A stretch of DNA of 64,000 bases from Verrucomicrobiota bacterium (GTDB lineage Bacteria; Verrucomicrobiota; Verrucomicrobiia; CAIQCK01): NCBI GenBank assembly GCA_026397915.1, contig JAPLTX010000014.1:186001-250000 (forward strand), given 5' to 3'. The notes under the pieces were generated by a model. It was given only the letters and a program-made list of their open reading frames with translations, made no database searches and had not been told where the DNA came from. Made by a program: the position numbers and the translations under genes. Positions 18,308 through 64,000 of this stretch are shown here, piece after piece. Numbering within the stretch: the first letter of the stretch is position 1; each line of letters begins with the position of its first letter.

Positions 18308-18332
18308 GGTTCCTTGGGCCGAGTTGGCTGTG

Positions 18333-38361: not shown

Positions 38362-39978
38362 ATGCCGGAAGAACTCGAACTGACCGAGGAAATTCGTCGG
38401 GTAGAAAACATTTTCCACAACACCAACCGGAATTTTCTCGTTCTTGGAAGTGCAGGAACGGGAAAGAGTTTTCTGCTAAAACGTTTGGTCGAGAACTCCC
38501 GCAAAAGACTTCAGGTTTTGTCGTTCACGGGCTTGGCAGCTCTCCAAGTTGGCGGGCGCACCATCCACAGCTTCTTTGGATTCGACCTCGGCCTCCAGAA
38601 GCGGTCGCACTTACTGCTGACGGGGACTGCTGAACAACAAGAGAATCGCCGGCGCGCATTTCAAAGTCTCGAAGCAATTCTGATAGATGAGGTTTCAATG
38701 CTTCGCGCAGACCTGCTTGATGCTGTTGATGGCGTTTTACGGGAACACGGTCCGCGACCGGGCGAACCGTTTGGAGGTGTTCAGGTCGGGCTATTCGGTG
38801 ACGTTTTGCAGTTGCCGCCAATTGTCGACGACGACGTCGACCAAGCGTTTCGCGCACAAGCCAACAACCTGTCAATGCCGGTTTGGGATGAGGGATGGAT
38901 TTCACCTTGGTTCTTCGATTCGTTCGCATATAGGACGGGCGGATTTATGCGGCTGACCTTGAATCATGTTTTTCGCCAGCAAAACGAGGCGGTGGAAGGA
39001 GTGGAGTTCATTCGGTCCCTCCAGCGATTACGAGAAGGCCGGATGCAGCCAGAGGATTATGATCTCATCAATTCGAGAGTCCACAACGACCGGCCCCAAA
39101 AAGCTCTCTCGCTCGTGACCACGAACAAGGAAGCTGATAGGGAGAATGACGCGAGGTTCAATGCGCTGCCAGGCCTTCCTAAAACCTATCGGGCATTTCG
39201 AGCAGAGAACTGGCCGAAACATTGGAAGGGGAAATCATACGAGCCAGTTCCTGAAACGGTTGAAATCAAGAAGGACGCTTGGGTGTTGGTTTGCGCGAAC
39301 ATCGCCGATTCCGGTTTGGTGAACGGCAGCTTGGGCACTGTGCTTCACTGCGATGACGAAGAAGTGGTCCTACAGGTCGGCAACCGAGAAGCTTCTGTCC
39401 CGAGATACGTTTGGAAGTTCCCAATCTGGCGGTGGGACGGCGAAAACAAGAGAATGGTCAAGGACGGCGAGACAATCTACTCGCAAATGCCGCTGAAACT
39501 TGCATGGGCCATGACCATTCACAAGGCACAAGGTCAAACTGTTGACGGCCCGATGTGCGTTGACCTCGGACAGCGGATGTGGTCCGGAGGCCAAGCATAC
39601 GTCGCGTTGTCTCGCGTCAGGCGTCTCGATCAACTCCACCTCCGAAGACCCGTGACAAACGAGGATGTTCTGGTCGAGAGGAAAGCGCGGCAGTTTCTCT
39701 GCGAGGGAGACTCGGCCACTTCTTTTGACGAAACTCGTGCACTAGCCGCCACGGTGTATCGAAAAACCAAGAAAATGAAGGACAAGACCGTCGAGGAGAG
39801 AGAGCGTGCAGAACACGCTCAAAAACGCATTGAGACGCTCTTGACCGATGCCGCTGCCACACTTCAAGAATGGAAGCAAGTGGTGACAAGAATCGCCGCC
39901 TCTGAAAAGAAGATTCTGTCAGCATTGGAGCAAGCGAAGAAAGCTGGTTGGTTGGAACGTTTGCTTGGCAGATTCTGA
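38362..39978 (+). CDS. Pif1/RecD-like superfamily 1 DNA helicase
   Basis: The 538-residue protein has a strong AAAGGAGATAT site before its ATG. Helicase motifs appear in order: Walker A GSAGTGKS (29-36), SFTGLAALQVGGRTIHSFFG (motif Ia, typical of Pif1), LIDEVSML (Walker B, Asp109-Glu110), GDVLQLPP (motif III), LAWAMTIHKAQGQT (motif V) and AYVALSRVR (motif VI). The C-terminal 100 residues look like a charged coiled coil (KKMKDKTVEERERAEHAQKR). Pif1-type enzymes unwind DNA 5'-3'. It interrupts the sulfatase cluster and its composition is visibly less G+C-rich, suggesting recent acquisition. No partner nuclease or transposase is adjacent. Confidence 0.88.
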   Translation: MPEELELTEEIRRVENIFHNTNRNFLVLGSAGTGKSFLLKRLVENSRKRLQVLSFTGLAALQVGGRTIHSFFGFDLGLQKRSHLLLTGTAEQQENRRRAFQSLEAILIDEVSMLRADLLDAVDGVLREHGPRPGEPFGGVQVGLFGDVLQLPPIVDDDVDQAFRAQANNLSMPVWDEGWISPWFFDSFAYRTGGFMRLTLNHVFRQQNEAVEGVEFIRSLQRLREGRMQPEDYDLINSRVHNDRPQKALSLVTTNKEADRENDARFNALPGLPKTYRAFRAENWPKHWKGKSYEPVPETVEIKKDAWVLVCANIADSGLVNGSLGTVLHCDDEEVVLQVGNREASVPRYVWKFPIWRWDGENKRMVKDGETIYSQMPLKLAWAMTIHKAQGQTVDGPMCVDLGQRMWSGGQAYVALSRVRRLDQLHLRRPVTNEDVLVERKARQFLCEGDSATSFDETRALAATVYRKTKKMKDKTVEERERAEHAQKRIETLLTDAAATLQEWKQVVTRIAASEKKILSALEQAKKAGWLERLLGRF

Positions 39979-40097: not shown

Positions 40098-40151
40098 CAA
40101 CCGGGCACACGCACTAGAATCGCCAACTCTTGTAGTGCATGTGCCCGGTTG
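40098..40151. repeat. 54-bp hairpin with 19-bp arms
   Basis: CAACCGGGCACACGCACTA (40098-40116) and TAGTGCATGTGCCCGGTTG (40133-40151) are inverted copies with one mismatch, around a 16-base loop. In minus-strand RNA the mismatch becomes a G-U pair, so all 19 positions would pair. No run of T follows on the plus strand, so it is not a standard terminator. It lies 119 bases after the helicase stop. Confidence 0.85.
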
Positions 40152-40200
40152 CTCTCTCAGCATTGTATGACTGGCAGACGGGAAGATGTTACGAGCCTTT

Positions 40201-40206
40201 AGGAGG
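40201..40206 (+). promoter_or_regulatory. Perfect AGGAGG ribosome-binding site
   Basis: AGGAGG lies nine bases before an ATG at 40216. It is the best Shine-Dalgarno match I noticed in the window, yet leads only into a 47-codon ORF that ends inside the 21-bp repeats. Confidence 0.6.
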
Positions 40207-40215
40207 ATTTTTTCT

Positions 40216-40359
40216 ATGTTTTCCACACGTTTTCGCATGTTTCCGACGTGGCGCGGCTGTTTTGGAGCCGTCGCGGGGATATGTGCCGCCGTCTGGTGGG
40301 GCTGTAACTCCGCCGGGGGGTTCTTTGCCGCCGCTGTGGAGATATGTTTCGCCGCTTGA
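40216..40359 (+). CDS. Possible 47-residue hydrophobic peptide running into the 21-bp repeats
   Basis: This ORF is too short for the track. It starts MFSTRFRMFPTWRGCFGAVA and continues with a hydrophobic, Cys/Ala/Gly-rich stretch (GICAAVWWGCN, GGFFAAAVEICFAA) before a TGA. The first 18 residues come from unique sequence; the rest comes from repeat units 1-5. After the TGA, and a TAG eight codons later, the same frame stays open and keeps a seven-residue periodicity (SAGRFLA, SAVWFFI, AAAGLFR, TAAAFLA). It may be a small membrane peptide, a leader peptide, or the broken start of a longer repeat protein. The perfect ribosome-binding site is the main support. Confidence 0.4.
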   Translation: MFSTRFRMFPTWRGCFGAVAGICAAVWWGCNSAGGFFAAAVEICFAA

Positions 40360-40521
40360 GCATTCTTTACCGCCGCTTGGTAGTTCCTTACAGCCGCTGT
40401 GGCGTTATTTCAATCCGCTGGAAGGTTCCTTGCCTCCGCTGTGTGGTTCTTTATCGCCGCTGCGGGATTATTCCGCACCGCTGCGGCATTCCTCGCGGAC
40501 GCTGGAAGGTTCCGTCCCGCC
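40270..40521. repeat. Twelve contiguous 21-bp tandem repeats
   Basis: Twelve units of exactly 21 bp fill 40270-40521 with no insertions. The consensus is roughly GCTGNGGNGTTCTTTNCCGC followed by C: the junction CCGCTG and the central TT are strongly kept, while bases 5-9 and 16-19 vary. Because 21 is a multiple of three, each plus-strand frame reads a seven-residue periodic peptide (PLEGSLP-, YRRxxVP- or SAGRFLA-like). Units 1-3 are the most diverged. A further weak unit may precede 40270. Confidence 0.9.
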
Positions 40522-40612
40522 GCCTTGCCGGGCTGCGGGCGGCGGGTGGGAAAAACGCTTGCCTTGTCGCGAGGGGCGGAGTTACAAGGGCGCGAACCAC
40601 TCCTTACATATT

Positions 40613-40933
40613 ATGAGCACGACGAACAGTTCCACGGGAAAGCCGCTGTTGTCGCTGGCGCAGGTCAGCAAGTTGTTGAGCGATGAGACGCGGTGGCGGT
40701 TGTTGCGGGAGATGAGCAAGGGAGAGATGCTGCCGACCGCCGATCTGGCCAAGCGCGCGGGGACGACTCCCGACTCGGCATACAAGCACCTGATCGTCTT
40801 GAACCGGATGGGTGTCGCGGTGCAGCGCTATCGCGGGTTCTTCGCGATGACGCCCGCGTTCCTGCCGCCCGCCGGCTCGACGACGCTGGACCTCGGCCAC
40901 TGCGTGGTCAAACTCGACACGCCGCTGGAGTAG
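40613..40933 (+). CDS. Small winged-helix (ArsR-like) transcription regulator
   Basis: The 106-residue protein starts MSTTNSSTGKPLLSLAQVSK and has an ArsR-type winged helix: VSKLLSDETRWRLLREMSKG, then the helix-turn-helix TADLAKRAGTTPDSAYKHLI and the wing VAVQRYRGFFAMTPAF. The tail GSTTLDLGHCVVKLDTPLE resembles many small HTH proteins I associate with verrucomicrobia. There is no metal-binding cysteine cluster. The frame stays open upstream to 40139 through the 21-bp repeats, so a longer form is possible, but nothing in that extension looks like folded protein. It is the only recognisable regulator in the window and converges on the second sulfatase block. Confidence 0.78.
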   Translation: MSTTNSSTGKPLLSLAQVSKLLSDETRWRLLREMSKGEMLPTADLAKRAGTTPDSAYKHLIVLNRMGVAVQRYRGFFAMTPAFLPPAGSTTLDLGHCVVKLDTPLE

Positions 40934-50048: not shown

Positions 50049-51965
50049 ATGGAACTGGTTCTGATCACGCTCTTCGCGCTCAGCCCGCTGGAAAAGGTTT
50101 TCCCTGACACGCCTGTGCCGCCACAGCCGGCGCAGGGCGTCGTCCTCTGGTGCGCGCGCAATGAAGCCGAGTGCGCGCAGATCGCTGTCCGCAGCACTCA
50201 GGCGCTCACGGGCGCAACGGTGCGCGTCGGGCCGTTGAAGCACGTCGGCGGCTACACGCTGCCGACCGAGGCGGTCCAGTGGAACTTCGTCGGCTCAATC
50301 CCGCTGAAGAAGAATACGCCGTGTGAGAACGCAACCACCTTGGCCCGCAAGGCGCCGTGCGACATGCCCGACGTGTTGCTGGCGGAGCGTGCGCGAGATA
50401 TCCCGGCCAACAGCACGCAGGCGATCTACCTTACCGTCACCGTGCCGAAGGACGCGCCCGATGGCCGCTACACCGGCACCGTCACGCTCGTCGCCGACGG
50501 GAAGGAAACCTCGCTGCCGGTGGAGTTGAACGTCTGGCCGTTCACGGTGCCAGATGAGCGCCATCTCTTCGTGACCAACTGGATCAATCACGGCACCATC
50601 GCCAAGGCGCACAAGGTCGAGCTGTGGTCGGACGCGTTCTTCGCCATCTACGGCAAGTATCTCGACAACATGCACGCGCACCGTCAGAACATCGCCTGGG
50701 TGCCGTGGTCGCTCATCAAAGTGACGGAGAAGAACGGCGGGCGGCTGAGCTTCGACTATGTGTTGTTCGACCGCTACGTCGAGGAATTGCACAAGCACGG
50801 CGTCGCCGACCGCATCGAGATCATGTTTGTCGGCCACTTTAAAGACGGCTGGAGTGGCAGGGAGATCGCGCTGACGCGGCTCGAAGTGAAGGACGCGAAG
50901 ACGGGCCAGCGCAAGAAACTCGAATTTGATCAAGGCCTCGCGCTGCTGCTGCACGATCTAGAGCAGCATCTGGAGCAAAAAGGCTGGCTCGACAAAGCCG
51001 TCATCCACATCGCGGACGAATCGTCGCAATACACCGTCCTCTCATGGCGCGAGCAATCCCGCCGCGTCCACCAAGCCGCGCCGCGGCTCAAGCGCATTGA
51101 CGCCATTGAAGCGTCCGACTTCGGCGACGACCTCGAGGTCTGGGTGCCGAAGCTCTCGCACCTGAAGAACTGGCTGCCGCAATACCAAGCCCAGCAACGC
51201 GCCGGCAAGGAACTGTGGTTCTATATCTGCTGCCATCCGACCGGCGGCTACTATCCGAACCGCTTCCTCGACTACCGGCTCGGCATGGTGCGGCTTATCC
51301 ACTGGCTCAACGCCGCCTACGACCTCGCGGGCTACTTGCATTGGGGCTGGTGCGCGTGGAAGAGCGACGATCCCTTTGGCGCGCCGCCGGACACATTGCC
51401 GCCGGGCGACACGCACACGGTCTATCCCGGCCCCGACGGCCCGCTGAACTCGCTTCGCTGGGAAGCGCAACGCGACAGCCTCGAAGACTTCGAGTATCTC
51501 TGGCTCCTCACGCAGCGGATGAAGGACGTGAAGCAAAAGCTCGGCAAGGTTGCTGCGGAGTTCGATCCCGCCGAGCGCGGCAAGGACTTCTGCCGGCGGC
51601 TGGTCCGCGACTTCGCCGACGTGACGAGCGATCCGCGCGAGATCGAGGAAACCCGTCGCGCGCTCGCCGCCGAGATCATCGCCGCGCCGCAGGAACCGCT
51701 TGTGATGTGGACGACGCGCCCGGCGGAATGGAGCGAGTTGGTGCCCGGCCCAATCGCCGTCGAAGTCCACGGTGCCGTCCAGCCCGGCACGACAATCAAG
51801 GGTTTGAACGTGGTCATCGAGCCAAGCGGACGTTTTCGAGGTGTCACGCATCTGTCGGCCAAGCACTCGAAGATTGAGTTGACCTTCACGCGCGACGGCG
51901 CGACCAAGACGCTCGTGCGGCAGTTCCGCGTGCGCACCGCACCGGCAACTGCGGCGGCGAAGTGA
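50049..51965 (+). CDS. GH123-like / DUF4091 glycoside hydrolase
   Basis: The 638-residue protein starts after GGAG at nine bases. The N-terminal 165 residues look like a beta-sandwich (YLTVTVPKDAPDGRYTGTVT); the middle is a TIM barrel of DUF4091/GH123 type with IHIADESSQ (Asp323-Glu324). In characterised GH123 enzymes an Asp-Glu pair acts in substrate-assisted cleavage of beta-GalNAc. GYLHWGWCAWKSDDPF and LRWEAQRDSLEDFEYLWLL are classic for the family. The N-terminus (MELVLITLFALSPLEKVFPD) is a poor signal peptide. It suggests GalNAc-containing substrate, though many DUF4091 proteins are uncharacterised. Confidence 0.82.
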   Translation: MELVLITLFALSPLEKVFPDTPVPPQPAQGVVLWCARNEAECAQIAVRSTQALTGATVRVGPLKHVGGYTLPTEAVQWNFVGSIPLKKNTPCENATTLARKAPCDMPDVLLAERARDIPANSTQAIYLTVTVPKDAPDGRYTGTVTLVADGKETSLPVELNVWPFTVPDERHLFVTNWINHGTIAKAHKVELWSDAFFAIYGKYLDNMHAHRQNIAWVPWSLIKVTEKNGGRLSFDYVLFDRYVEELHKHGVADRIEIMFVGHFKDGWSGREIALTRLEVKDAKTGQRKKLEFDQGLALLLHDLEQHLEQKGWLDKAVIHIADESSQYTVLSWREQSRRVHQAAPRLKRIDAIEASDFGDDLEVWVPKLSHLKNWLPQYQAQQRAGKELWFYICCHPTGGYYPNRFLDYRLGMVRLIHWLNAAYDLAGYLHWGWCAWKSDDPFGAPPDTLPPGDTHTVYPGPDGPLNSLRWEAQRDSLEDFEYLWLLTQRMKDVKQKLGKVAAEFDPAERGKDFCRRLVRDFADVTSDPREIEETRRALAAEIIAAPQEPLVMWTTRPAEWSELVPGPIAVEVHGAVQPGTTIKGLNVVIEPSGRFRGVTHLSAKHSKIELTFTRDGATKTLVRQFRVRTAPATAAAK

Positions 51966-51999: not shown

Positions 52000-54885
52000 A
52001 TGAAAACATTCGCGACGATTCTGTTGGCGCTCGCTTCATGCGTCGTCGCCGCTTCAGCGGCGGACCACGGAGGCGCGGTGTTCAACTACGACTTTGAGAA
52101 CGGGGCTGAGCTTGGCAAATATCCGGAGCTATCGTTCAAGGATATCGAAGCCGCCGTCGTCGCGCCGGGAGCGAGCGGGAGCGGCCATGCGTTGCGCTTT
52201 CGCAACCTCACGCCCGGCCGCTACGCGCAGGTCACCATCAAGCGGTCGTTCCCGTTGCAGAAGAACCTCGTGCTGTCGTTCGACCACCGCGAGGAGATCG
52301 AAGCGGGCGGCGAGGCGAGCTACCTCGGCGTGCTCTTCTACGACATCGCCGGCAAGTCGTGGTTCAGCAGCGACGATTTCGGGCCGAAGTGGCGGCACAC
52401 CGAGATCGTGCTCGGCGAGATGCGCAGCTCCAACGGTGGCGTGCTTGCGCTCGGCAAGGTGATGGAACGCATCAACCTCTACGGCCGCGCCAAGGGCGAC
52501 ACGAAGACCGTGATGACCGTCTGGCTCGACAACATCACACTCCGCGCGCAGGCGCCGTCCGCACGCCAGAGCGACGAGGTGCGCACATCCACGTCGAATC
52601 CACCGTTCTTCAACTGGCCGCGCGCCAAGGGTGAGACGAAACTTCAGCATTCGACCGACCCCGCCTTCCCCGACGCGAAGACCACGACCGTCACCGTGTC
52701 GCAGAACTTCCACACGCCGCCCCAACCGCTCGCGCCGGAGCTGTGGTATTGGCGCGTTTGGACTTCGTCGGAACTGACCGAAGGTTGGTCAGAGGTTCGC
52801 CGAGCCAACATCGTGCCGGAGGCGCACCGGTTCATCACCGAGCCAGTGCCGATGGCGAAGATCACCGCAGCGCCGCGCCCGCGCGTGATTGACCTCGACG
52901 CGGCCCGCAAGGAACACGCCGGCAAAAACGCCACCGCGCTGGTGAAGTCGGCGGAGAAGATTCATCGTAGCGGCGTGCCGGCCGACCCGCCGCGCTACGC
53001 GCCGGGCAATCCCGACTGGCCGACGTGGATTGACTGGTATGGGAAGGTCCACGGCGGCATCACCAGCCGGACCGGCAGGAAACTCCAGCAAATCGCACAG
53101 CTCGCCGCGCTCACGCGTGACCCGCAGGTCGTCACGTGGACCAAGGAAATGGCGTTTGCCGCCGCCGCGTGGAATCCGAAAGGCGGCAGCGCGATGGAGG
53201 TCGGTGACATCGGCGCGCAGCATCTCATCCGCGGCCTGAGTTGGTGCTACGACGCGCTTCATGACGACCTTTCCGCCGACGAGCGCGTGAAGTTGCGGGC
53301 CGTCATCGTCGAGCGCGCGGAGCAGTTCTGGACACGGCTGAATCCTTTCCGCAGCAACGAATTCAACAACCACGCATGGCTCCAGACGCTCGCGATGGCC
53401 GAAGCCGGCTTCGTGCTCATCGGCGAACACGACGAAGCCGCTGTGTGGGCGGAGTATTCGCGGCAACTTTACCTCGGCCGGTTCCTCTGCTGCCTCGGTT
53501 ACCAGGGCGACAACAACGAAGGCATCGGCTACTGGGGTTACGGTCTCCTGTTCGTGATTGATTACGGCGACCTGATGCGGCACGTCTGCGGCATTGATCT
53601 CTTCCAACATCCGTGGCTGAACCAGACGGCGCGGTTTCCGATGTATTGCGCGCCTCCGGGCGCGTGGGCCGTCAGTTTCGCCGACACCGCCAAGCCCAAC
53701 CACAGCGTCCGCGGCCCCGCCGAGCAACGACAGGTGCGCGACCTCGCCGTCCGCACGCGTGATCCCTACGCCCTCTGGTATGCCGGCGCGACCAACGCCG
53801 TGGACGGCCTCGCGCCGAAGCCGCCGACCGACCTGCCACAGTCCATCCACTACCGCCACATCGGTTGGGTTATCTTCAACACCTCGCTCGCGGACGGTTT
53901 GGAGAACTCCACCTTCGCGATGCGCAGCGGGCCGTTCTACGCCGGCCACCAGCATGACGACCAGAACGGTTTCGTCATCCATGCCTACGGTGAGAAGCTC
54001 GCGATAGATTCCGGTTACTACGACTGGTATGGCAGCCCGCACTTCAAGGGCTACTCCACGCTCACCCGCGCCCACAACGCCATCCTCGTCAATGGCAAGA
54101 ACCAGGCGCACATGGAGAAGGGTGCCGACGGTCGCATCGCTGCCTACTTCGATTCGCCTGCCTACGGCTACACCGTCGGCGACGCGTCGAATCCCGCCGT
54201 CTATCTCGGACATCTCAAACGCTTCGACCGCCGCGCGCTGTTCATCAAACCCGGCTTCGTTGTCATTCACGACGTGCTGCAATCGAGCGCCGCGCCCGCC
54301 CGCTACGACTGGCTGCTCCACGCCGTCGCGCCCATCGAAACCGACGCCGCCTCTCAGTCATTCGCACTCACTTCCGGCAACGCCGCGCTGCGCGGACGAT
54401 TCCTTTCCCCGTCGAAGCTCGCGATGACGGTGACGAAAGGCTACCCCGTCGAACCGGTGGACGGCTATAGCACTCGGCCCGTGCCGCCGGAGAAATACGC
54501 CCACGAGTGGACGCTAACGACCACGCGCACCGCGCCGACCGCAAACGAGGACTTCATCACCGTCATGCAAATCCGCCGCCTCGCGCCCGTCGCCGAGCCG
54601 GAGGCGCGCATCGAGTCACTGAAAGCTGCCAACGCATTCGGCGTTCGCATCGTCGCCGACAAAGACACGCACATCGTCCTCTTCCGCCAGCGCGATGCGA
54701 AAGACGCGATGAACGGTGGTGCTTTGGAAAGCGACGGCGACGTGGCGGCTGTCCACTACGACTCGCAGAGCGGCGAAGTGCGGAGCGCATTTGCCTGCGG
54801 AGCCACGCGCCTGTGTTTCCGCGGAAAAGAACTGTTCCGCAACGCAACACCAACCGACTGGTCACTGCCCGCTCAAAGGAACTGA
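52000..54885 (+). CDS. Heparinase II/III-like polysaccharide lyase
   Basis: The 961-residue exported protein (MKTFATILLALASCVVAASA) begins with a jelly-roll-like region (residues 25-185), a fibronectin-like segment (PPFFNWPRAKGETKLQHSTD), then an alpha/alpha toroid with NNHAWLQTLAMAEAGF near 456 and a C-terminal beta-sandwich with GHQHDDQNGFVIHAYGEKLA near 648 and THAHN-like LTRAHNAILVNGKNQ. These are hallmarks of DUF4962/Hepar_II_III proteins, which cleave uronic-acid-containing glycans by beta-elimination. The likely catalytic Asn/His/Tyr are in the NNHAW and later segments. It follows the GH123-like gene after 34 bases. Confidence 0.87.
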   Translation: MKTFATILLALASCVVAASAADHGGAVFNYDFENGAELGKYPELSFKDIEAAVVAPGASGSGHALRFRNLTPGRYAQVTIKRSFPLQKNLVLSFDHREEIEAGGEASYLGVLFYDIAGKSWFSSDDFGPKWRHTEIVLGEMRSSNGGVLALGKVMERINLYGRAKGDTKTVMTVWLDNITLRAQAPSARQSDEVRTSTSNPPFFNWPRAKGETKLQHSTDPAFPDAKTTTVTVSQNFHTPPQPLAPELWYWRVWTSSELTEGWSEVRRANIVPEAHRFITEPVPMAKITAAPRPRVIDLDAARKEHAGKNATALVKSAEKIHRSGVPADPPRYAPGNPDWPTWIDWYGKVHGGITSRTGRKLQQIAQLAALTRDPQVVTWTKEMAFAAAAWNPKGGSAMEVGDIGAQHLIRGLSWCYDALHDDLSADERVKLRAVIVERAEQFWTRLNPFRSNEFNNHAWLQTLAMAEAGFVLIGEHDEAAVWAEYSRQLYLGRFLCCLGYQGDNNEGIGYWGYGLLFVIDYGDLMRHVCGIDLFQHPWLNQTARFPMYCAPPGAWAVSFADTAKPNHSVRGPAEQRQVRDLAVRTRDPYALWYAGATNAVDGLAPKPPTDLPQSIHYRHIGWVIFNTSLADGLENSTFAMRSGPFYAGHQHDDQNGFVIHAYGEKLAIDSGYYDWYGSPHFKGYSTLTRAHNAILVNGKNQAHMEKGADGRIAAYFDSPAYGYTVGDASNPAVYLGHLKRFDRRALFIKPGFVVIHDVLQSSAAPARYDWLLHAVAPIETDAASQSFALTSGNAALRGRFLSPSKLAMTVTKGYPVEPVDGYSTRPVPPEKYAHEWTLTTTRTAPTANEDFITVMQIRRLAPVAEPEARIESLKAANAFGVRIVADKDTHIVLFRQRDAKDAMNGGALESDGDVAAVHYDSQSGEVRSAFACGATRLCFRGKELFRNATPTDWSLPAQRN

Positions 54886-54889
54886 ACCC

Positions 54890-57800
54890 ATGAAGATACT
54901 CGCAACAGGTTTGCTGGCGCTCGGCCTCGCCGCGCCTTGTTTCGCAGACGTTACCCTCAAGCTCACCGACGCCACCGTCACGTTGAACGAGCGCGGCTGT
55001 GTCACCTCGCTACTCGCCGCTGATAAACACGAATACGCTCCGCCCGGCGCGCCGCCGGCATTCGAGGCGACCGTGGACGGCAGCGTGCTCCAGCCAAGCC
55101 GCGTCTCGCGCAAAGGAAACAAACTCGTGGTGGAGTTCGGGGAGCGAGGTCGGCTCCAGTTCACCGTCTCCGAAGGTCGCGGCTTCGCGTTCTTGAAACT
55201 GACGGAGATGGCGATCAGCGGGAACGTCGAGCGGCTTCAGTTGTTCTGCCTGCCCGTCAACGGCCCGAAGAAGGTCGGCAGCACCATCAACGCCTGTTAC
55301 GACGAGCGGTTTGCGACGGCGGTCATGGGAACCGAGATCAACGTCCGACCTCGTCTGCTCGGCGCGCGCGGCGCTGGCTCTGATAATAAGGGCTGCACGC
55401 ACTTGTTCGAGCAGGTGGCGGACGCCAAACACGGCAGCCGCGCCGCGCGGTTCACCGCCACCAGCGACCGCATCGACAACGCCGGCTGGAGCGTCGTCGG
55501 CCGGAGGTTCGTGCAGCCGCTCGACTTGAGCGGCTGCACGACGCTGCGCGCGTGGGTCCACGGCGACGGCAGCGGCCAGTCGTTGAAGATCCAACTGACC
55601 GACGGCAAGGGCGGCTATCGCGACGACTATGTGAAGATTGATTTCACCGGATGGCGGCAGGTAACGATGGCCAAGCCAGCGCTCAACACGCTGCGCTCCG
55701 AGCGCGTGGTGGCGGGGAACTTCTATTTCAACTCGCTGCCGGCGAAGAAAAAGGTCGTCTGCCTGCTCGATCAGGTCGAAGCCATTCTCGGCGAGAACAA
55801 GACGGTGCTGCTGGAGGATTTCGAGGACGCCTCGTCGGAATTCTGGCCGATGGTCGGCATGAGGCTCTACGCCGAGACGACGAAACAGTTCGGAATCGAA
55901 CCAGCCGGCGTCGGTGTCATCGCCTGCCCGCGCGCGCAGTTCGAGAAGACGATCGAGCGGTTCGAGCGCGCGTCGGGTCTGCCGAGTCCGCGTGTGGACG
56001 GTGTCTGGGCCAAGACTTCGCCGGCGGCGAAACGCTCCTACCTCTTCATCACCAACTTCGCCGAGAAGGACACCGACGAAGTCATTGCTTTCGCCAAGCG
56101 CGGCCACTTCGACGCCATCCTGATCGTGCAGAGTTCGTGGTGCTCCTCGACCGGCCACTATCCGATCAACACGAAAAACTTCCCGCGCGGCCTCGACAGC
56201 CTCAAGGCGACGTTCGCGCGGCTGAAGCGGGCCGGCTTCAAGGTCGGCCTGCATTACCTCGCGCCCTCCATCTATCCGCCCGACCCGTATCTCACGCCCG
56301 TGCCCGACCCGCGGCTGTTCCGCGACGCGTCGGCGGAACTGGCGGCGGACGTGGACGCGAAGGCGACGTTCATCCCGACGATCACTGCACCGGAGAAGTT
56401 CCCTGCCGAGGACGGCGGCTACGACGGCGATGGCGCGGTCATCCAGATCGGCAACGAGTTGATCCGCTACACCGAGCGTTCGATGAAGCCGCCGTTTGGT
56501 TTCACCGGCTGCGCCCGCGGCCTGCATGGCACCGCGGTAGCGGCGCACACACGCGGCGAGAAGTTGGCGCATCTGCGAAAGAGCTACGGCTACTTTCTGT
56601 TCGACATGGACACGACCCTCATCAACGAGGTCGCCGACAACCTCGCGCGCGTCGTCAACGCGCTCAACGCCGACATGGTTTACTGGGACGGCTCCGAGCG
56701 GCTGCAAGGCGACCACGCCTACTACAACGCCAAGCTCCAGAAGGCGTTCTACGACCGGTTCAAGAACAAGAATATGCTGATCCAGGGCAGCAGCCACAGT
56801 CATTATTCGTGGCACATCCACGCGCGCTGCGCTTCCGCCGACGGCCACGGCGACCTCAAGGGCTACCTCGACGAGCGCACGCCGTCATTCACGAGTTACT
56901 ACTTCCCAAACCTCATGCCGCTCGATATCGGCTGGTATTACGTCTATGACGTGCAGGCGACCGTGGACCAGTTCGAGTATGTGCTGAACAAATCCGTCGG
57001 CTTCGATTCCTCCGTCTCACTGCAAACCTCGCCGAAACACATCCGCGAGCATCCTTACGTTGACGTGATTGTGGATCTCATCGGCGCTTACGAGCGGCTG
57101 CGGCTCGGCGGCAAAGTGCCGGAGGAAACTCGCGCCAAGCTGCGCGTGCCGCAGCGCGACTACCGGCTCGTGCGCGACGGCCGCGGGCAGGCGCTTCAGC
57201 GCGTCATCTACGAGCCGTGGCGCAGCATCACCGCGCTCGACGGCAAGACCAACGTCTGGGAAACCGTCGTGACCGATGGCCCGTGCCGCGTTGGCGTGGA
57301 CATCCAGTTGCCGTCCGGCCAGTGGGCCGCGTCGGGGCCGTCGTATCGCTCGGAGAAATCGCTCGCGCTGGAGGACTTCAGCGACGCGCGCGCCTACGAC
57401 AAGATTCGCAACACCTTCCCGGGCGTGACGCAGCAGTTCGAGATCACGACCACCGGCGGCATTGAGGGCAAACCATGCGCGGTCTATTCCGCCACCAGCC
57501 CGTTCCGCAGCGGCTGGTCGGTCGTCGGGCGCAGCATCAGCCCGCCGCTCGACATCTCGTGGCACAAAGGCATCGGCTTCTGGCTGCGCGGCGACGGCAA
57601 CGGCGCGCAGTTCAAGCTCCAGCTTCGCGACGGCAAGGGCGCTGCCGATTTCTACATCCCCAACAGCTACACCGGCTGGCGCTACCACCAGATCACGCGG
57701 CCGGCGAAGGACGCGATAGACTACAGCCGCCTCTCCCAGCTTTACCTTTATTATAATGGCCTGCCCGCCAAGACGAACGTGACCTGCGCCATCGCCGGCG

Positions 57801-58120
57801 TGCGCGCGCTGCCGGCGCTCGACGAGCCGGCGGTCATTGATCCCGTCTTCGAGATCGCCGGCCAGAAGCTCACGTGGCCCGTGACGCTCCTGACCGGCCA
57901 GACGTTCACCTACTGGCCAGACGAAGACGTGCGCATCAGCATCGGCGAGAAACACGGCCCGGTCGTGCGCTTCGAGTTGCCGACGACGATCACGCTCCCG
58001 CCGGGCCGGCACGCTGTGCGGTTCACGACGCCGACACCGCTGACCGCCGCGCCGAGCGTGCGCCTGACGTTGCAGCCAGCGGAGCGGTTGCCAGTAACGA
58101 AGATGGGAAAGACAAAATGA
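54890..58120 (+). CDS. Large exported putative glycan-active enzyme with two carbohydrate-binding-like domains
   Basis: I start at MKILATGLLALGLAAPCFAD (54890, AAAGGA upstream), 1076 residues. Two homologous jelly-roll segments flank a central domain: residues about 180-300 (NAGWSVVGRRFVQPLDLSGC) and 833-980 (SGWSVVGRSISPPLDISWHK), both ending YFNSLPAKKKV/YYNGLPAKTNV; they resemble CBM11-type domains. The centre (370-760) looks like a TIM barrel: FDAILIVQSSWCSSTGHYPI, GLHYLAPSIYPPDPYLTPVP, NADMVYWDGSERLQGD. I recognise no glycoside-hydrolase family; Asp in YWDGSE is a candidate catalytic residue. It starts four bases after the lyase gene and overlaps the next gene by ATGA. Confidence 0.72.
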   Translation: MKILATGLLALGLAAPCFADVTLKLTDATVTLNERGCVTSLLAADKHEYAPPGAPPAFEATVDGSVLQPSRVSRKGNKLVVEFGERGRLQFTVSEGRGFAFLKLTEMAISGNVERLQLFCLPVNGPKKVGSTINACYDERFATAVMGTEINVRPRLLGARGAGSDNKGCTHLFEQVADAKHGSRAARFTATSDRIDNAGWSVVGRRFVQPLDLSGCTTLRAWVHGDGSGQSLKIQLTDGKGGYRDDYVKIDFTGWRQVTMAKPALNTLRSERVVAGNFYFNSLPAKKKVVCLLDQVEAILGENKTVLLEDFEDASSEFWPMVGMRLYAETTKQFGIEPAGVGVIACPRAQFEKTIERFERASGLPSPRVDGVWAKTSPAAKRSYLFITNFAEKDTDEVIAFAKRGHFDAILIVQSSWCSSTGHYPINTKNFPRGLDSLKATFARLKRAGFKVGLHYLAPSIYPPDPYLTPVPDPRLFRDASAELAADVDAKATFIPTITAPEKFPAEDGGYDGDGAVIQIGNELIRYTERSMKPPFGFTGCARGLHGTAVAAHTRGEKLAHLRKSYGYFLFDMDTTLINEVADNLARVVNALNADMVYWDGSERLQGDHAYYNAKLQKAFYDRFKNKNMLIQGSSHSHYSWHIHARCASADGHGDLKGYLDERTPSFTSYYFPNLMPLDIGWYYVYDVQATVDQFEYVLNKSVGFDSSVSLQTSPKHIREHPYVDVIVDLIGAYERLRLGGKVPEETRAKLRVPQRDYRLVRDGRGQALQRVIYEPWRSITALDGKTNVWETVVTDGPCRVGVDIQLPSGQWAASGPSYRSEKSLALEDFSDARAYDKIRNTFPGVTQQFEITTTGGIEGKPCAVYSATSPFRSGWSVVGRSISPPLDISWHKGIGFWLRGDGNGAQFKLQLRDGKGAADFYIPNSYTGWRYHQITRPAKDAIDYSRLSQLYLYYNGLPAKTNVTCAIAGVRALPALDEPAVIDPVFEIAGQKLTWPVTLLTGQTFTYWPDEDVRISIGEKHGPVVRFELPTTITLPPGRHAVRFTTPTPLTAAPSVRLTLQPAERLPVTKMGKTK

Positions 58121-61100
58121 ACCGATTCGCATTCCTCTTGTTGGCGGCAACCACGGCATTTGCCGACCGCGCGGCGGACGATGCCGCATGGGAAGCCATC
58201 CGCGTCAAACAGGAACGACCGCTGTTGATGGAGACGCCTCTGGTGAGCAATGGCGTGGCTGCCGCGGCCATCGTTCCGGCTGAGGATGAGCCATGGAAAA
58301 GCGCAGCGGCGAAGTTGCAGGCGGCCGTCGCAGCAAAGACCGGCGTCACGCTGCCCATCGTCGCGCCGGCGAAAATCACCGACGCCGATTGGGCGGGGCG
58401 CCACCTTATCGTCATCGGCAATCTGCTGAACAATCCCGTCTTCGCGCGGCTCTACTTCAACTACTTCGCTTGCGCCGACGCCGCATACACCGGCGCGGGT
58501 GGCTACGAGTTGCGTTCGATCCACGATCCGTGGGGCAACGGCCACAACGTCATCGCACTCGGCGCGCAGGACGTGGCGGGGCTTGAAGCGGGCGTGTCGC
58601 GGTTCATCACGCTCGTCAACGAGCGCACGAAGGACGGCGAGCTGAAACTCAGCCGGTTGATGGAGTTGAAGCTGACGAAAAAAGGCCGACGCGCGCCGTT
58701 GGAGCCAAAGCTGTCCGTGAAGGAGATTGCCGACCGCAAGGAAACCATCGCGAACATCTACGCGCGGCCCGGCACCGAACGCGGCGCGGCGCACCAGATG
58801 ATCAAGTTCGCCATGCAGTATCACCGCACCGGCGACCCCGGCTGGCTGGAGTTGTATCGCGACGCGATGCGCCAGCACATGAACTACTACGCGACCAACG
58901 AATACATCCTGCAAGAAGGCCCGCGTCGCTACGACCGCGATTTCCGCGACAGTTGGGCCTACGCGATGGTCATCGCGTGGGACCTCGTCGAGGAAGCGCC
59001 AGGCTGGAGCAACGAGGAACGGCTAAAACTCACCAACCATGTTTTGAGGATGGTCTGGGAGTCGAACCTTTATCAAGGATGGGACCGGCCCGCCTCCGTC
59101 GCGGCTTGGCGCAAGTTCGACAGCGTCACTCACAATCATCACACATGGCCGGGACTAGCCGATCTCTTTGGCGGATGGTATTTCTCGCGGCATTACAAGC
59201 TGCCAGTGGCGAAGGATTGGCTCGACATCGGGCTGGGCATGTTCCGCTCGTGCTCGCGGAGTTGCAAACCGTGGGAGGACAGCGCGGGCTACCAGTGGAT
59301 TCCGCAACGGCACGTGCTGATGTATGCGCTCGCGTCTGGCGACCGCACGTTCATCGAGCAGGGCCACGCCGCGCAGACCGGCAAGGCCGCGCTCCAAGCT
59401 CTCGACAGCCTCGGCCGTCAGCCCGCATGGGGCGATTGCGGCGGGTTTACGTCGGTGTCGGGGATGCCGGAGTTGATGTGCGCGCTGGAATACGCCACCG
59501 GCGACGGACGCTATCGCTGGGCCATCGAGTGGCTCGGCGTGGACGCGCGCGACGAGATGGAAGCACCGTATTGGACGAACATCGCGCCGAAGCGGCCCGA
59601 CGATCTCACCGGCGTCGCGGTCACTTACCTGCCGAAGATGCACTACGATCTCTTCGGACTCTCAAAGCGCGACGACATCTGGCAAAAGGCGAACCTGCCG
59701 TTTGCCGACACGTTCGACAAACTCACGCTCCGCAGCGGTTGGGCCGAGGACGACGACTACCTGTTGCTCGACGGCACCGCCGCCGGCTCGCACGGCCATC
59801 TCGACGGCAACTGCATCATCGCGTTCACCGCGGCGGGCGCGCAGTGGCTCGTGGACGCCGAATACATCCGCCGCATCACGAAGTATCATTGCGCGGTCAC
59901 CGTGCTCCGCAACGGCGTCGGCTCGATCATGCCGCCCAGCGCGCGGCTTGACCACGCCGTCTGGTTCGGCAACGGCGCGCTCACCCGCACCACGATGCCG
60001 CATTACAACGGCATGACCTGGACGCGCAACATTGTCTTCGTCCCGAAACGCTACGTCGCGGTGATTGACGAGTTGACCGCCGAGCAAGCGGGCGATTACA
60101 GCCTGCGTTGCTGTTGGCGCGTGGCTGGCGAGAGCACGCTCGATGGCGACACGTTGCGCGCACAGCAACGCGAGAGAGGTTTCGTCCTACGGAACCTCAG
60201 CGGCCAGCGCCAGGAACTCGTCTATATCAAGGATTTCGACGGCCTGCCAATTCACCAGCTTTACCAGCGTGCGTCCCGGTCATTTCAGAAGGGCGAAACC
60301 GTTCGCTTCGTGAACGTGTTTGCGGCTGGCAAGAACGGCGTGCCTACCATAGAGGCGTCATGGAAACCTGTAGCGGCAGTCTCTGGCCGCCGAGACGCCG
60401 ATGGCAAAATCCGCGAACGGCGGTCAGATACCATCCCTACAGTTTCTGGTGTTGATTACGGGACTATCATAATCAACGGCAACACGGAGATGTTCGGCAT
60501 CGCCGACGCGATGTTTTATCGTCTCGCCGACAATGAAGAGTGGCTCGTTGGCGCGACGAAGTTCGTCGCAGGTGGAAAAGTCCTGTTGGATTCCAAGTCG
60601 CCGATTGCAGCAAAGCTTGACGGGGACAGTATTGCGTTCGGCAAACCACAGTCAGTGCCGGCGCACGGCCTGCGACCGTCGCAAGTCATCGGCGAGCCGC
60701 AATCACTCACTCGCCCGCTGGAGGCTTCCTCCACCGTCGCCGAGCCAGCAAAACCGAAACCGGTTGCTGCGCCGAAGTCCACGGCGGCACTCGCTGGTGC
60801 GAAGCCGTTGCAAACGCTCTGGCGCTTCGCTGATTTCCCGGTGACACCGCGTCCGCTGAAGATTGCCGCAATTCGCTCCGAGCCACCGCCACGCGAGGCT
60901 TACAGCCCACTGGAGCGGCTGGTTGACGGCGCGTCGAACGGCTCAACAACCTCCTGCATGTTCATGCCCGGCAAGACCGCGACCATCACGCTCGACCTTG
61001 GTGCTCCACAACGCGTGCGCGAAGTCCATGTCAAAGCTTGGGAGAAGCACGATGGCTGGAAGACGAAACGCCTCGCGCTGAGCCTGAGCAACGACGATTT

Positions 61101-62310
61101 CAAGCAAGACATTCGGCCAACGGGCGAGTTGAAGGAAACCGGCTCGCTGTCGTTCGGCAGCAACGTCAACACCATCCGCACAGCATCGCCCGACCAAACC
61201 GCACGCTACGTCCGCATCACCGGCGAACCGGCGACCCCGAAGGCGACGGTCTATCTCGCCGAGATCGAAGTTGTTGGCGAGACGCCCGGCGAGAAGGCGA
61301 AACTGGTCGCGCTCGCGTCGGCCGACCTCGACGGCGACGAAAAAGCTGACACAGTCATCGGCACGGGGGGCGGCGACATTGTTGCGTTGAACGCGTCGGG
61401 CAAGAAGCTCTGGCAGACGAAAGTGGGCGGCGCGGTCACGGCGCTGGCCGCTGGCTCGCTCGACAAGAGCGGCAAGCCGTCGGTGATCTACGGCACCGAT
61501 GATGCCATCCTTGGCATGCTGGCGGCCGACGGCAGCAAAGTGGCCGACGTGAAGCCGCCGATGTATCGCGGCGTGCCGAGCCGCGTGCGGAACATCACGC
61601 TCGCCGACCTCGACGGCGACGGCAAACAGGAGATCGTCATCGGCTGCGACAGTTGGCAATACATGGCCTACTCGCCAGCGTTGAAGCTCGTCGGGCAGAC
61701 GGTCTATTACGCCCACGGCGCGACGGTCGGTCACGTCGCAGACCTCGACGGCGACGGCAAACCGGAGATCATCGCCGGCAACGCCTACTACAGCCTGCAG
61801 ATCCTCAACCATCGCGGCAAAATCGTCAGCCGTGGCTCAGGGTCTTTCGGGCCGGAACAGACAGCCGTGACCTCCGGCGACCTGCGCGGCGACGGCAAAC
61901 GCGCGGCGATTCTCGGCACAGACGGCGGCTCCGTGCTCGCCTTTGACGCGAAAGGCGGCAAGCTCTGGGAAGCCAACGTCGGCGACCGCGTCACGACGCT
62001 CCGCTGCGACGTGGTCGGCGGCAAACCACGCGTCATCGCGGCGTCCGAGAGCGGTTACGTTTGGGCGCTCGACGCGACGGGCAAGCCAATCTGGAAACGC
62101 GACCTCGGCGAGCCGGTGAAGCGCCTCGCGCGCAATGGCGACGCGTATATCGCCGCCGCGTCGGCCAATGGCATCGTGCGCTTGTCGTTGGAAGGAAAGA
62201 TCGAAGCCGCCGCGGCCACAACCGCACCGGTGACCGATTTGGTCGTCAGTGACGATCAAGCCATCGCGTTAATCGAGGATGGCTCAATGTGTGGCATCAT
62301 AGCTCGATAA
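58117..62310 (+). CDS. Giant exported lyase-like protein with discoidin and FG-GAP-type repeats
   Basis: The ATG at 58117 overlaps the previous stop; 1397 residues. After a signal peptide come: an N-terminal domain like those preceding alpha-glucuronidase catalytic domains (residues 30-190, LQAAVAAKTGVTLPIV); an alpha/alpha-toroid plus beta-sandwich of heparinase II/III type (220-760; HNHHTWPGLADLFGGWYFSR, AGSHGHLDGNCIIAFTAAGA near 558); an F5/8C (discoidin) domain (about 928-1055; TATITLDLGAPQRVREVHVK); and a C-terminal propeller (1066-1397) with calcium-loop repeats DLDGDEKAD, DLDGDGKQE, DLDGDGKPE and ALDATGKPIWKRDL. It probably cleaves a uronic-acid polysaccharide while gripping substrate or surface. 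The combination of domains is one I do not know. Confidence 0.8.
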   Translation: MNRFAFLLLAATTAFADRAADDAAWEAIRVKQERPLLMETPLVSNGVAAAAIVPAEDEPWKSAAAKLQAAVAAKTGVTLPIVAPAKITDADWAGRHLIVIGNLLNNPVFARLYFNYFACADAAYTGAGGYELRSIHDPWGNGHNVIALGAQDVAGLEAGVSRFITLVNERTKDGELKLSRLMELKLTKKGRRAPLEPKLSVKEIADRKETIANIYARPGTERGAAHQMIKFAMQYHRTGDPGWLELYRDAMRQHMNYYATNEYILQEGPRRYDRDFRDSWAYAMVIAWDLVEEAPGWSNEERLKLTNHVLRMVWESNLYQGWDRPASVAAWRKFDSVTHNHHTWPGLADLFGGWYFSRHYKLPVAKDWLDIGLGMFRSCSRSCKPWEDSAGYQWIPQRHVLMYALASGDRTFIEQGHAAQTGKAALQALDSLGRQPAWGDCGGFTSVSGMPELMCALEYATGDGRYRWAIEWLGVDARDEMEAPYWTNIAPKRPDDLTGVAVTYLPKMHYDLFGLSKRDDIWQKANLPFADTFDKLTLRSGWAEDDDYLLLDGTAAGSHGHLDGNCIIAFTAAGAQWLVDAEYIRRITKYHCAVTVLRNGVGSIMPPSARLDHAVWFGNGALTRTTMPHYNGMTWTRNIVFVPKRYVAVIDELTAEQAGDYSLRCCWRVAGESTLDGDTLRAQQRERGFVLRNLSGQRQELVYIKDFDGLPIHQLYQRASRSFQKGETVRFVNVFAAGKNGVPTIEASWKPVAAVSGRRDADGKIRERRSDTIPTVSGVDYGTIIINGNTEMFGIADAMFYRLADNEEWLVGATKFVAGGKVLLDSKSPIAAKLDGDSIAFGKPQSVPAHGLRPSQVIGEPQSLTRPLEASSTVAEPAKPKPVAAPKSTAALAGAKPLQTLWRFADFPVTPRPLKIAAIRSEPPPREAYSPLERLVDGASNGSTTSCMFMPGKTATITLDLGAPQRVREVHVKAWEKHDGWKTKRLALSLSNDDFKQDIRPTGELKETGSLSFGSNVNTIRTASPDQTARYVRITGEPATPKATVYLAEIEVVGETPGEKAKLVALASADLDGDEKADTVIGTGGGDIVALNASGKKLWQTKVGGAVTALAAGSLDKSGKPSVIYGTDDAILGMLAADGSKVADVKPPMYRGVPSRVRNITLADLDGDGKQEIVIGCDSWQYMAYSPALKLVGQTVYYAHGATVGHVADLDGDGKPEIIAGNAYYSLQILNHRGKIVSRGSGSFGPEQTAVTSGDLRGDGKRAAILGTDGGSVLAFDAKGGKLWEANVGDRVTTLRCDVVGGKPRVIAASESGYVWALDATGKPIWKRDLGEPVKRLARNGDAYIAAASANGIVRLSLEGKIEAAAATTAPVTDLVVSDDQAIALIEDGSMCGIIAR

Positions 62311-62372: not shown

Positions 62373-64000
62373 TCATCGTATCCAATAACGCCCCGCTGGC
62401 AGACTCAGCGGATCGAGCCATCGTTTCCACCATAGCCAAAGCAAGTCACCCACACCCACACTGAACTGGAGATACCGAGGTTCGAGGTGGAACTGTTGCG
62501 CGCCCGTGTGGTCCTTGGGGCGGTCAAACTCCACCGTGATGGGGTCGTCACCGGCAAGATCCCGACGGAGCACGATGACCATGCCCATGTCAGACGCCGC
62601 CCTGGTGTAATCGAGGGATGATTTCAGCATCCGATCGCCTTGCGAGATCGCGAACGTGTCGTAGCTCTCCACGCTCTCCAGAGGGAGCAACAGTCCGGGG
62701 ATCACGATCTTCGAGACCGGCAGGGAACGATGTTCTTTCAGCACCAGTCGGATTCTTTTCGGAACCGCCGCGGTGCAGCCCTCGCCAACAGCAGAACCCG
62801 AGGGATCTTCGCGCGTGACTGTCTCCAGCGGAACGGCTCGATTCTCGGTTTGTTTGACGAAACCCGCTATCAGCAGACACGGCAGCGTAACCGCCGCGAC
62901 GCCGCGTATGGTAAGCGAGCGCCATGCTTTTACTGCGCCGAGATAAGCCAGAAGTGCCGCAAGAGGAATCCACCACGTCCAATAGCGGACGACGAGGTAT
63001 TTGAAGAGGTTGGCGGCTTCGAAACCGGTATAGCCGAGATAGAAGCCCACACAACACCCCATGGCCCCGATCCAACCGGCGTGCCTGAGGCGTTCTGTCT
63101 TCAACAGGTAAACGACTCCCGGTAACACAAAGAGCAGCCAGGGGAATCGGTGGATCAACATGGGTTCGCGGTTGTTCCACATCGTGTTGGCCGACAAGAA
63201 GATGCTATAGGCCTTGCGGAGCACGCCGTCAAAACTCATCCCCCTCCTCATGGATATTGTCTGGACGTAAGGTGTAATCGCTTGGCCAAACACTGCGTAG
63301 TTGATGGCCACGATTGCCCCGATCGAGATTGCAAACAAACCGGCGGTCAGCATTGCCTTCGCAATGCACTGACGGACCTCTCTCTGACGCAAATCCCTCC
63401 AAAGCTCCACAGCGAAAACCGGAATCATGTAAATCGCATCGGCTGCCCTGAACCACGGGATCAACGCCAACAACAACGATGCCGCGAAGTAGCGGGACCA
63501 TCCCGGCCGGCAAAACACGAGCAGCACGATGATGGCGTAGTTGATCAGGTGTGTCGGAATGGAATTCCAAGGGACGACCAACGAATCCGTCAGGATGCTT
63601 CGCGGCAACAGGATGGCGGCCGCAGCTAGCGCCACGGCCTCCCACGGCGAGACGAATTCACGGCAGATTCGATGGAACAGGACGAGGATTCCCACCACGC
63701 ACAGCAAGTCGGGAACCAGAAACGCGTGGGATGGCATCAGCCGGAAGAACAGCGCGCCCATGGCGGGATAACCCAAAGGATAATAATAGTTGTCCGGCTT
63801 CAGACGGAAATGCGCCAAATCCTGAGCCGACCGCCAATACCAGCCTTGATCCCACCATCCCCACCACCCCACAGACCACGCCGGGTCGGCACCGGGCAAC
63901 ACCGGCTGCAAGAAATAGGCAATCAAATACCAAACTATTCCTGCGACCAACAGGACCGCTAAAGGCCATGAGAACCACACCCCTGCGCTTGCCGCCAAGC
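62373..64000 (-). CDS. Multi-pass membrane protein, start beyond window
   Basis: The ORF track gives an alternative TTG start at 63998, but the frame is open to the window edge, so the true start is probably outside. About 541 residues are visible. Around ten hydrophobic segments occupy the first 390 (SWPLAVLLVAGIVWYLIAYF, AVALAAAAILLPRSIL, AGLFAISIGAIVAINYAVFG, LAALLAYLGAV), followed by a soluble tail (KIVIPGLLLPLESVESYDTF). The layout, with WDQGWYWRSAQDLAHF in the first loop, resembles GT-C-type glycosyltransferases or related polyprenyl-linked sugar transferases, but the diagnostic acidic motif is not certain. It converges on the lyase operon and is probably unrelated to it. Confidence 0.6.
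   Translation of the reverse strand, partial: LAASAGVWFSWPLAVLLVAGIVWYLIAYFLQPVLPGADPAWSVGWWGWWDQGWYWRSAQDLAHFRLKPDNYYYPLGYPAMGALFFRLMPSHAFLVPDLLCVVGILVLFHRICREFVSPWEAVALAAAAILLPRSILTDSLVVPWNSIPTHLINYAIIVLLVFCRPGWSRYFAASLLLALIPWFRAADAIYMIPVFAVELWRDLRQREVRQCIAKAMLTAGLFAISIGAIVAINYAVFGQAITPYVQTISMRRGMSFDGVLRKAYSIFLSANTMWNNREPMLIHRFPWLLFVLPGVVYLLKTERLRHAGWIGAMGCCVGFYLGYTGFEAANLFKYLVVRYWTWWIPLAALLAYLGAVKAWRSLTIRGVAAVTLPCLLIAGFVKQTENRAVPLETVTREDPSGSAVGEGCTAAVPKRIRLVLKEHRSLPVSKIVIPGLLLPLESVESYDTFAISQGDRMLKSSLDYTRAASDMGMVIVLRRDLAGDDPITVEFDRPKDHTGAQQFHLEPRYLQFSVGVGDLLWLWWKRWLDPLSLPAGRYWIR

Follow-up and report, generated by a model that had tools for sequence, protein, structure and literature searches.

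The gene at positions 54890–58120 of the window, by which we mean the whole 64,000-nucleotide stretch of Verrucomicrobiota DNA analyzed here, probably encodes a secreted retaining α-glycosidase of the α-galactosidase superfamily that founds a family for which neither Pfam nor NCBIfam holds a model. The protein's family is widespread and unnamed, and its members appear to be functional relatives of the α-galactosidases; we therefore consider a new family of sugar-cleaving enzymes to be the probable explanation. A sequence-only reading had proposed a new glycoside hydrolase (GH) family at this locus, and the comparison with Pfam, NCBIfam and PDB supports the proposal, in that no family match was obtained and a predicted catalytic pair of Asp residues is conserved.

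Gene, domains and internal duplication

The open reading frame is real, as indicated by the spacing of its start and stop codons and by the sequence AAAGGA that precedes it. Its start codon, the ATG at 54890, follows the TGA of the upstream gene by 4 nt, and the stop codon (58118–58120) shares an ATGA overlap with the start of the next gene. The features of the gene are as follows.

54890–58120, + strand: coding sequence of a secreted multidomain putative glycoside hydrolase, 1076 aa
54890–54946, + strand: signal-peptide-like N-terminus, residues 1–19, MKILATGLLALGLAAPCFA (from the sequence; a low-confidence helix in the model)
54950–55369, + strand: N-terminal β-sandwich, residues 21–160 (AF2 whole-protein model, pLDDT mostly 88–97)
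55382–55819, + strand: first CBM11-type jelly roll, residues about 165–310, within the N-terminal β region (Pfam CBM_11, E 4e-9)
56039–57028, + strand: (β/α)8 barrel, residues 384–713 (AF2 models, GH27/GH36 profile matches and fold matches)
56267–56599, + strand: β-subdomain after strand 3, residues 460–570 (alignment, PHROG and Pfam matches)
56687–56689, + strand: codon of Asp600, predicted nucleophile at the C-terminal end of strand 4 (alignment, AF2 model)
56840–56842, + strand: codon of Asp651, predicted acid/base on strand 6 (alignment, AF2 model)
57158–57307, + strand: C-terminal β-sandwich after the barrel, residues about 757–806 (AF2 model)
57422–57823, + strand: second CBM11-type jelly roll, residues about 845–978 (Pfam, duplicate of the first copy, AF2 model)

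The AF2 model of the whole protein had a pLDDT of 86, and that of a barrel construct had a pLDDT of 81 overall, with strands mostly >90. Two motifs that had been singled out as glycosidase-like were placed on the barrel accordingly: WDGSE (residues 599–603) lies at the end of strand 4, and HYLAPSIYPPDPYL (residues 455–468) spans the end of strand 3 and the beginning of the β-insert.

The two jelly rolls share 36% identity across 157 aa (E 2e-26), which bears out the earlier claim that the domains flanking the barrel are internal duplicates. Both are of the CBM11 type; however, the N-terminal one is inserted in the N-terminal β region and does not simply precede the barrel. CBM_11 (PF03425), which matched two stretches of the protein with a score of 37.1 bits (cut-off 27), was the sole family above its curated Pfam cut-off. 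The comparison with the CBM11 folds 6r3m and 1v0a, from Lic26A-Cel5E of Clostridium thermocellum, gave TMt values of 0.65–0.67. Although the Pfam match and the jelly-roll fold are shared with the CBM11 of Lic26A-Cel5E, the two domains are only 14–16% identical to it, and β-glucan binding is not expected given the operon. We built a profile from both copies of this protein together with the copies of the four relatives nearest to it and searched 101 family ORFs with it; the C-terminal copy was found in 44 ORFs and the N-terminal copy solely in this protein and those four relatives. The likeliest history is that the C-terminal jelly roll is the older copy and the N-terminal one its recent duplication into the N-terminal β region. 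The two domains may anchor the enzyme to its polysaccharide.

Placement of the barrel among known families

The barrel had been described as one of no nameable family, and this description held for the models that were searched. The barrel gave no Pfam and no NCBIfam match, and a search of PDB sequences with this protein alone gave nothing but chance actin-like matches. PF02065 (GH36) did not match the protein and was sub-threshold in 2 of 29 family members (best E 0.0018), whereas PF16499 (GH27) matched neither the protein nor, at E 0.1, any of the 29. PF01055 (GH31) gave no match in the protein in the scan with family HMMs. Both PF11308 (GH129) and PF12905 (GH101) were silent at the locus; the single match to the former in the genome lies elsewhere (contig C10, 150419–151315), and the latter had no match anywhere in the genome. 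The genome's only match to PF10566 (GH97), at 58059–58730 of contig C14, is likewise a different locus. A confident assignment to an established GH family, which would have contradicted the proposal, was thus obtained from none of Pfam, NCBIfam and the PDB sequences.

We then compared a barrel profile of 93 rows, with and without the β-insert, with profiles of known families using HHalign, and sulfatases served as the negative control. The closest families were GH27 (E 3e-6, improving to 6e-8 with a probability of 95 when the insert was removed) and GH36 (E 8e-6 and 4e-6, respectively), with the similarity lying mainly within strands 1–3. Weaker values were obtained for GH97 (E 2e-4 to 3e-4), GH31 (E 4e-4 to 5e-4), GH101 (E 0.007–0.016) and GH129 (E 0.4); the sulfatase control gave 0.2. 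A 29-row family profile searched against PDB found GH36 and GH27 chains at E 1e-5 and weaker, in the region of strands 2–3.

In the structure comparison, no close fold was found. The whole-protein model matched GH101, GH31, GH36 and GH129 first (E 1e-14 to 1e-10), with low TM-scores of about 0.25–0.4, and the barrel alone matched GH13, GH36 and GH31. Membership in GH101 or GH129, which was prompted by these best fold matches, was rejected because of the profile E values and the silent family models. The barrel accordingly lies within the α-galactosidase superfamily (GH27/31/36), to which it has detectable profile and fold similarity together with a predicted strand 4/strand 6 catalytic layout; its nearest relatives are GH27 and GH36 by sequence, and GH101, GH31, GH36 and GH129 by fold. 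Since the barrel falls in a known superfamily, it would represent a new family and not a new fold.

Pfam lags behind CAZy, and the family is big enough to have drawn notice, so that an active family that is already in CAZy, or among the hypothetical families of Naumoff, with neither a Pfam model nor a solved structure should also be considered. The Naumoff GHL families that have Pfam models were covered by our Pfam scan and did not match the barrel, but some GHL families may have none. The families GHL1–GHL15 and later hypothetical glycoside hydrolase families have been described (cited in PMC5352709). We nevertheless judge it unlikely that the family has already been named, because neither the family models, the sequences of PDB chains nor the fold comparison gave a close match, and literature searches yielded no matching description.

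Comparison with the individual families showed both shared and distinctive features. The motif W...G.y..n...fP.G after strand 2 is common to this protein and to the GH27/GH36 α-galactosidases and α-N-acetylgalactosaminidases (clan GH-D), which are the nearest by profile and have an Asp nucleophile on strand 4 and an Asp acid/base on strand 6, an arrangement predicted for this protein too; unlike them, the protein has no Pfam-level match and no DDGW motif, and carries a β-insert of about 110 residues and CBM11-type domains. GH101 and GH129 (endo-α-GalNAcase, α-GalNAcase and 3,6-anhydro-D-galactosidase) resemble it in being among the top fold matches and in having β-sandwiches on either side of the barrel, but show no clear profile relation. 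GH31, including the cycloalternan-forming enzyme, is also among the high fold matches, and an insert after strand 3 is typical of that family as well; its profile similarity, however, is just at the level given above.

Predicted active site and the β-insert

All 93 of the aligned barrels share Asp600, which terminates strand 4 (residues 596–600) and was aligned with the nucleophiles of the GH36 KWD and GH27 KYD motifs. Asp651 was conserved in 90 of the 93 and lies on strand 6 of the model, between strands 5 (630–633) and 7 (678–684); it was aligned with the acid/base of the GH36 WTSDN motif, whereas the GH27 alignment was off by 3, and since this is a region of low-confidence alignment the position rests also on the model. 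A layout with the nucleophile on strand 4 and the proton donor on strand 6 has been reported for GH27 and GH31 (PMC1249566). In a retaining mechanism, Asp600 would attack the anomeric carbon and Asp651 would serve as the acid/base. Because both Asp residues expected for catalysis in the α-galactosidase superfamily are conserved, alignment and model together predict a catalytically competent barrel and not a dead one, an outcome that would have spoken against the earlier proposal. Two other candidates for the acid/base were considered. Glu603, which is near Asp600 and is Glu in 69 and Asp in 21 of the 93 barrels, was set aside, and Gln632, which occupies the position of the presumed strand 5 Glu acid/base of GH101, was rejected, as this position is variable in the family.

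The conservation of the two Asp residues also bears on the possibility that the barrel is not a hydrolase but a carbohydrate-binding or isomerase-like TIM barrel with an α-galactosidase-like fold. This possibility is suggested by weak matches to AP_endonuc_2 (xylose isomerase-like) in 5 of 29 members, the best of which (E 0.0016) was under the curated cut-off. In addition to the near-invariance of the catalytic positions, secretion, the CBM11-type domains and an operon of glycan-degrading enzymes argue against it, and we consider a non-hydrolytic barrel very unlikely, more so than a family that has already been named. A hydrolase thus remains our preferred reading.

In GH27 and GH36, the DDGW motif after strand 2 recognizes galactose. 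This motif is replaced by QSSW in our protein, and neither Asp is conserved across the family; therefore, the recognized sugar is probably different.

The β-insert contains the nearly invariant residues L484, E523, R543, G544, T548 and H553. It probably covers the active site and sets specificity, with Glu523, Arg543 and His553 as the candidate residues. Of 29 members, 20 have an insert that matched PHROG 1101, a family of phage tail proteins, the best at E 2.5e-7 and our protein at E 1.7e-4 (residues 481–559); weak matches of the insert to PF23666 (Rcc01698_C) were found in 8 of the 29. In contrast to these phage tail proteins, the insert forms a subdomain within a secreted glycosidase-like barrel and is not part of a virion. 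The likeness may reflect either homology or a common small β fold. Homologous phage-tail-like inserts were also observed in another locus (L017) and in further members of the family.

Operon, relatives and probable substrate

The gene is the third of four closely packed genes on the + strand, next to a divergent sulfatase cluster.

50049–51965, + strand: operon gene 1, GH123-type enzyme (GH123_cat E 4e-56; PDB 8k2j E 2e-83)
52000–54885, + strand: operon gene 2, DUF4962 and heparinase II/III, PL15-type lyase (PDB 3a0o and 6lja matches)
58117–62310, + strand: operon gene 4, weak heparinase II/III-like region, F5/8-type domain and FG-GAP/lambda-carrageenase-type propeller
11366–49614, − strand: divergent cluster of 19 sulfatase genes and two BD-FAE-type esterases

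The operon with three glycan-degrading enzymes that had been noted earlier was thereby confirmed, the partners being the GH123-type gene, the DUF4962/heparinase II/III gene and the gene with the weak heparinase II/III-like region and propeller. Gene 2 matched two PDB entries, the oligoalginate lyase 3a0o (E 5e-52) and, less strongly, the heparinase II/III-like protein 6lja (E 2e-23); its layout is that of the PL15_2 exoheparinases, which combine DUF4962 with heparinase II/III (PMC7904915), and it resembles a PL15 exolyase. Gene 1 resembles an NgaDssm-type β-N-acetylgalactosaminidase. Enzymes of this type (that of 8k2j) free oligo- and monosaccharides at β-GalNAc, and the oligosaccharide-releasing enzymes that were tested had no action on polymeric chondroitin sulfates (PMC11087588). 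Groundwater Verrucomicrobia MAGs are the nearest named relatives of the lineage in which this strong 8k2j match of gene 1 occurs. Gene 4, which encodes a large secreted protein, had no PDB sequence match.

Because gene 1 resembles NgaDssm and gene 2 a PL15 exolyase, a polysaccharide of HexNAc and uronate, probably sulfated, is the likely substrate. The putative glycosidase would share this glycan with the NgaDssm-like β-N-acetylgalactosaminidase, the PL15-type exolyase, the heparinase-like protein and many sulfatases. Carrageenan, which was suggested by the lambda-carrageenase-type propeller next door, was dropped because GalNAc and uronate are the sugars indicated by the enzymes encoded upstream, and because the nearest named relatives are for the most part groundwater and other uncultured MAGs.

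Sulfatase matches are numerous genome-wide (97 in 6.2 Mb, a few being fragments of one gene). The cluster itself (about 38 kb) is broken by two opposite-strand genes, a PIF1-like helicase (38362–39978) and a helix-turn-helix-like gene (40139–40933), and includes a 576-aa ORF on the − strand (16700–18430) with no Pfam match. A 541-aa ORF near the end of the window (62373–63998, − strand), apparently a membrane protein, also had no Pfam match.

About 100 homologous ORFs were found in PVC bacteria, Armatimonadota, Acidobacteria and gut Clostridia, and the genome itself carries two paralogues with 30–31% identity. Relatives were present in 23 of 289 genomes of the phylum at E 1e-10 and, by profile search, in 17 of 188 genomes of the class. 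The collection scan, for which the query was the narrower alignment A3 (A1 and A2 being wider and more divergent), gave 57 named loci. The closest four, with 86–95% identity, belong to uncultured MAGs, mostly of groundwater Verrucomicrobia; those with 28–40% identity belong to Planctomycetota, Lentisphaerae, Kiritimatiellae, Armatimonadota, Zipacnadia, Acidobacteria and others, and the gut Clostridia members show about 20–25% identity. Three of the gut Clostridia loci (L087, L083 and L086) contain tandem arrays of distant members, at least one of which has S-layer homology domains; these domains suggest that the gut Clostridia members may be cell-surface enzymes. In a Pirellulales MAG, two to three members are adjacent at two loci (L072 and L082), and at L082 a GH123-type gene separates them.

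The order of lyase, putative glycosidase and propeller gene was kept in both closest relatives with long flanks, one of which also has the GH123-type gene. Among 85 neighbors of relatives with 28–40% identity, glycosyltransferase group 1 was the commonest (6), and there were 3 matches each to sulfatases, heparinase-like proteins, GH123-type enzymes and alginate lyases. As the neighbors of these distant relatives are mostly other genes, the family shows no general link to sulfatase clusters: the sulfatase setting holds for this gene, with 19 sulfatase genes beside it, but not for most members of the broad family. The glycosyltransferases, together with epimerases and polysaccharide synthesis proteins near the same relatives, could indicate that the enzyme is a depolymerase acting on the exopolysaccharide of its own cell or of neighboring cells, for matrix release or remodeling and not for nutrient scavenging. 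However, this genome and the closest relatives show a lyase, a β-GalNAcase-like enzyme, sulfatases and esterases nearby and no glycosyltransferases; a role in exopolysaccharide turnover therefore seems improbable to us, to the same degree as a family that has been named already.

Returning to a glycosidase that acts on scavenged polysaccharide, we would give roughly even chances to its fullest form: a new GH family of the α-galactosidase superfamily, ranging from PVC bacteria to gut Clostridia and equipped with a phage-tail-like subdomain, that cleaves an α-linked sugar recognized by no known family from a sulfated HexNAc/uronate polysaccharide. Given the change in the sugar-recognition motif, the sugar or linkage that is cleaved may lie outside the range known for the α-galactosidases. 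The predicted catalytic pair and the defined operon make the family directly testable. Because automatic annotation skips unnamed enzyme families, its roughly 100 detectable members would hide glycan-degrading capacity in the bacteria that carry them.
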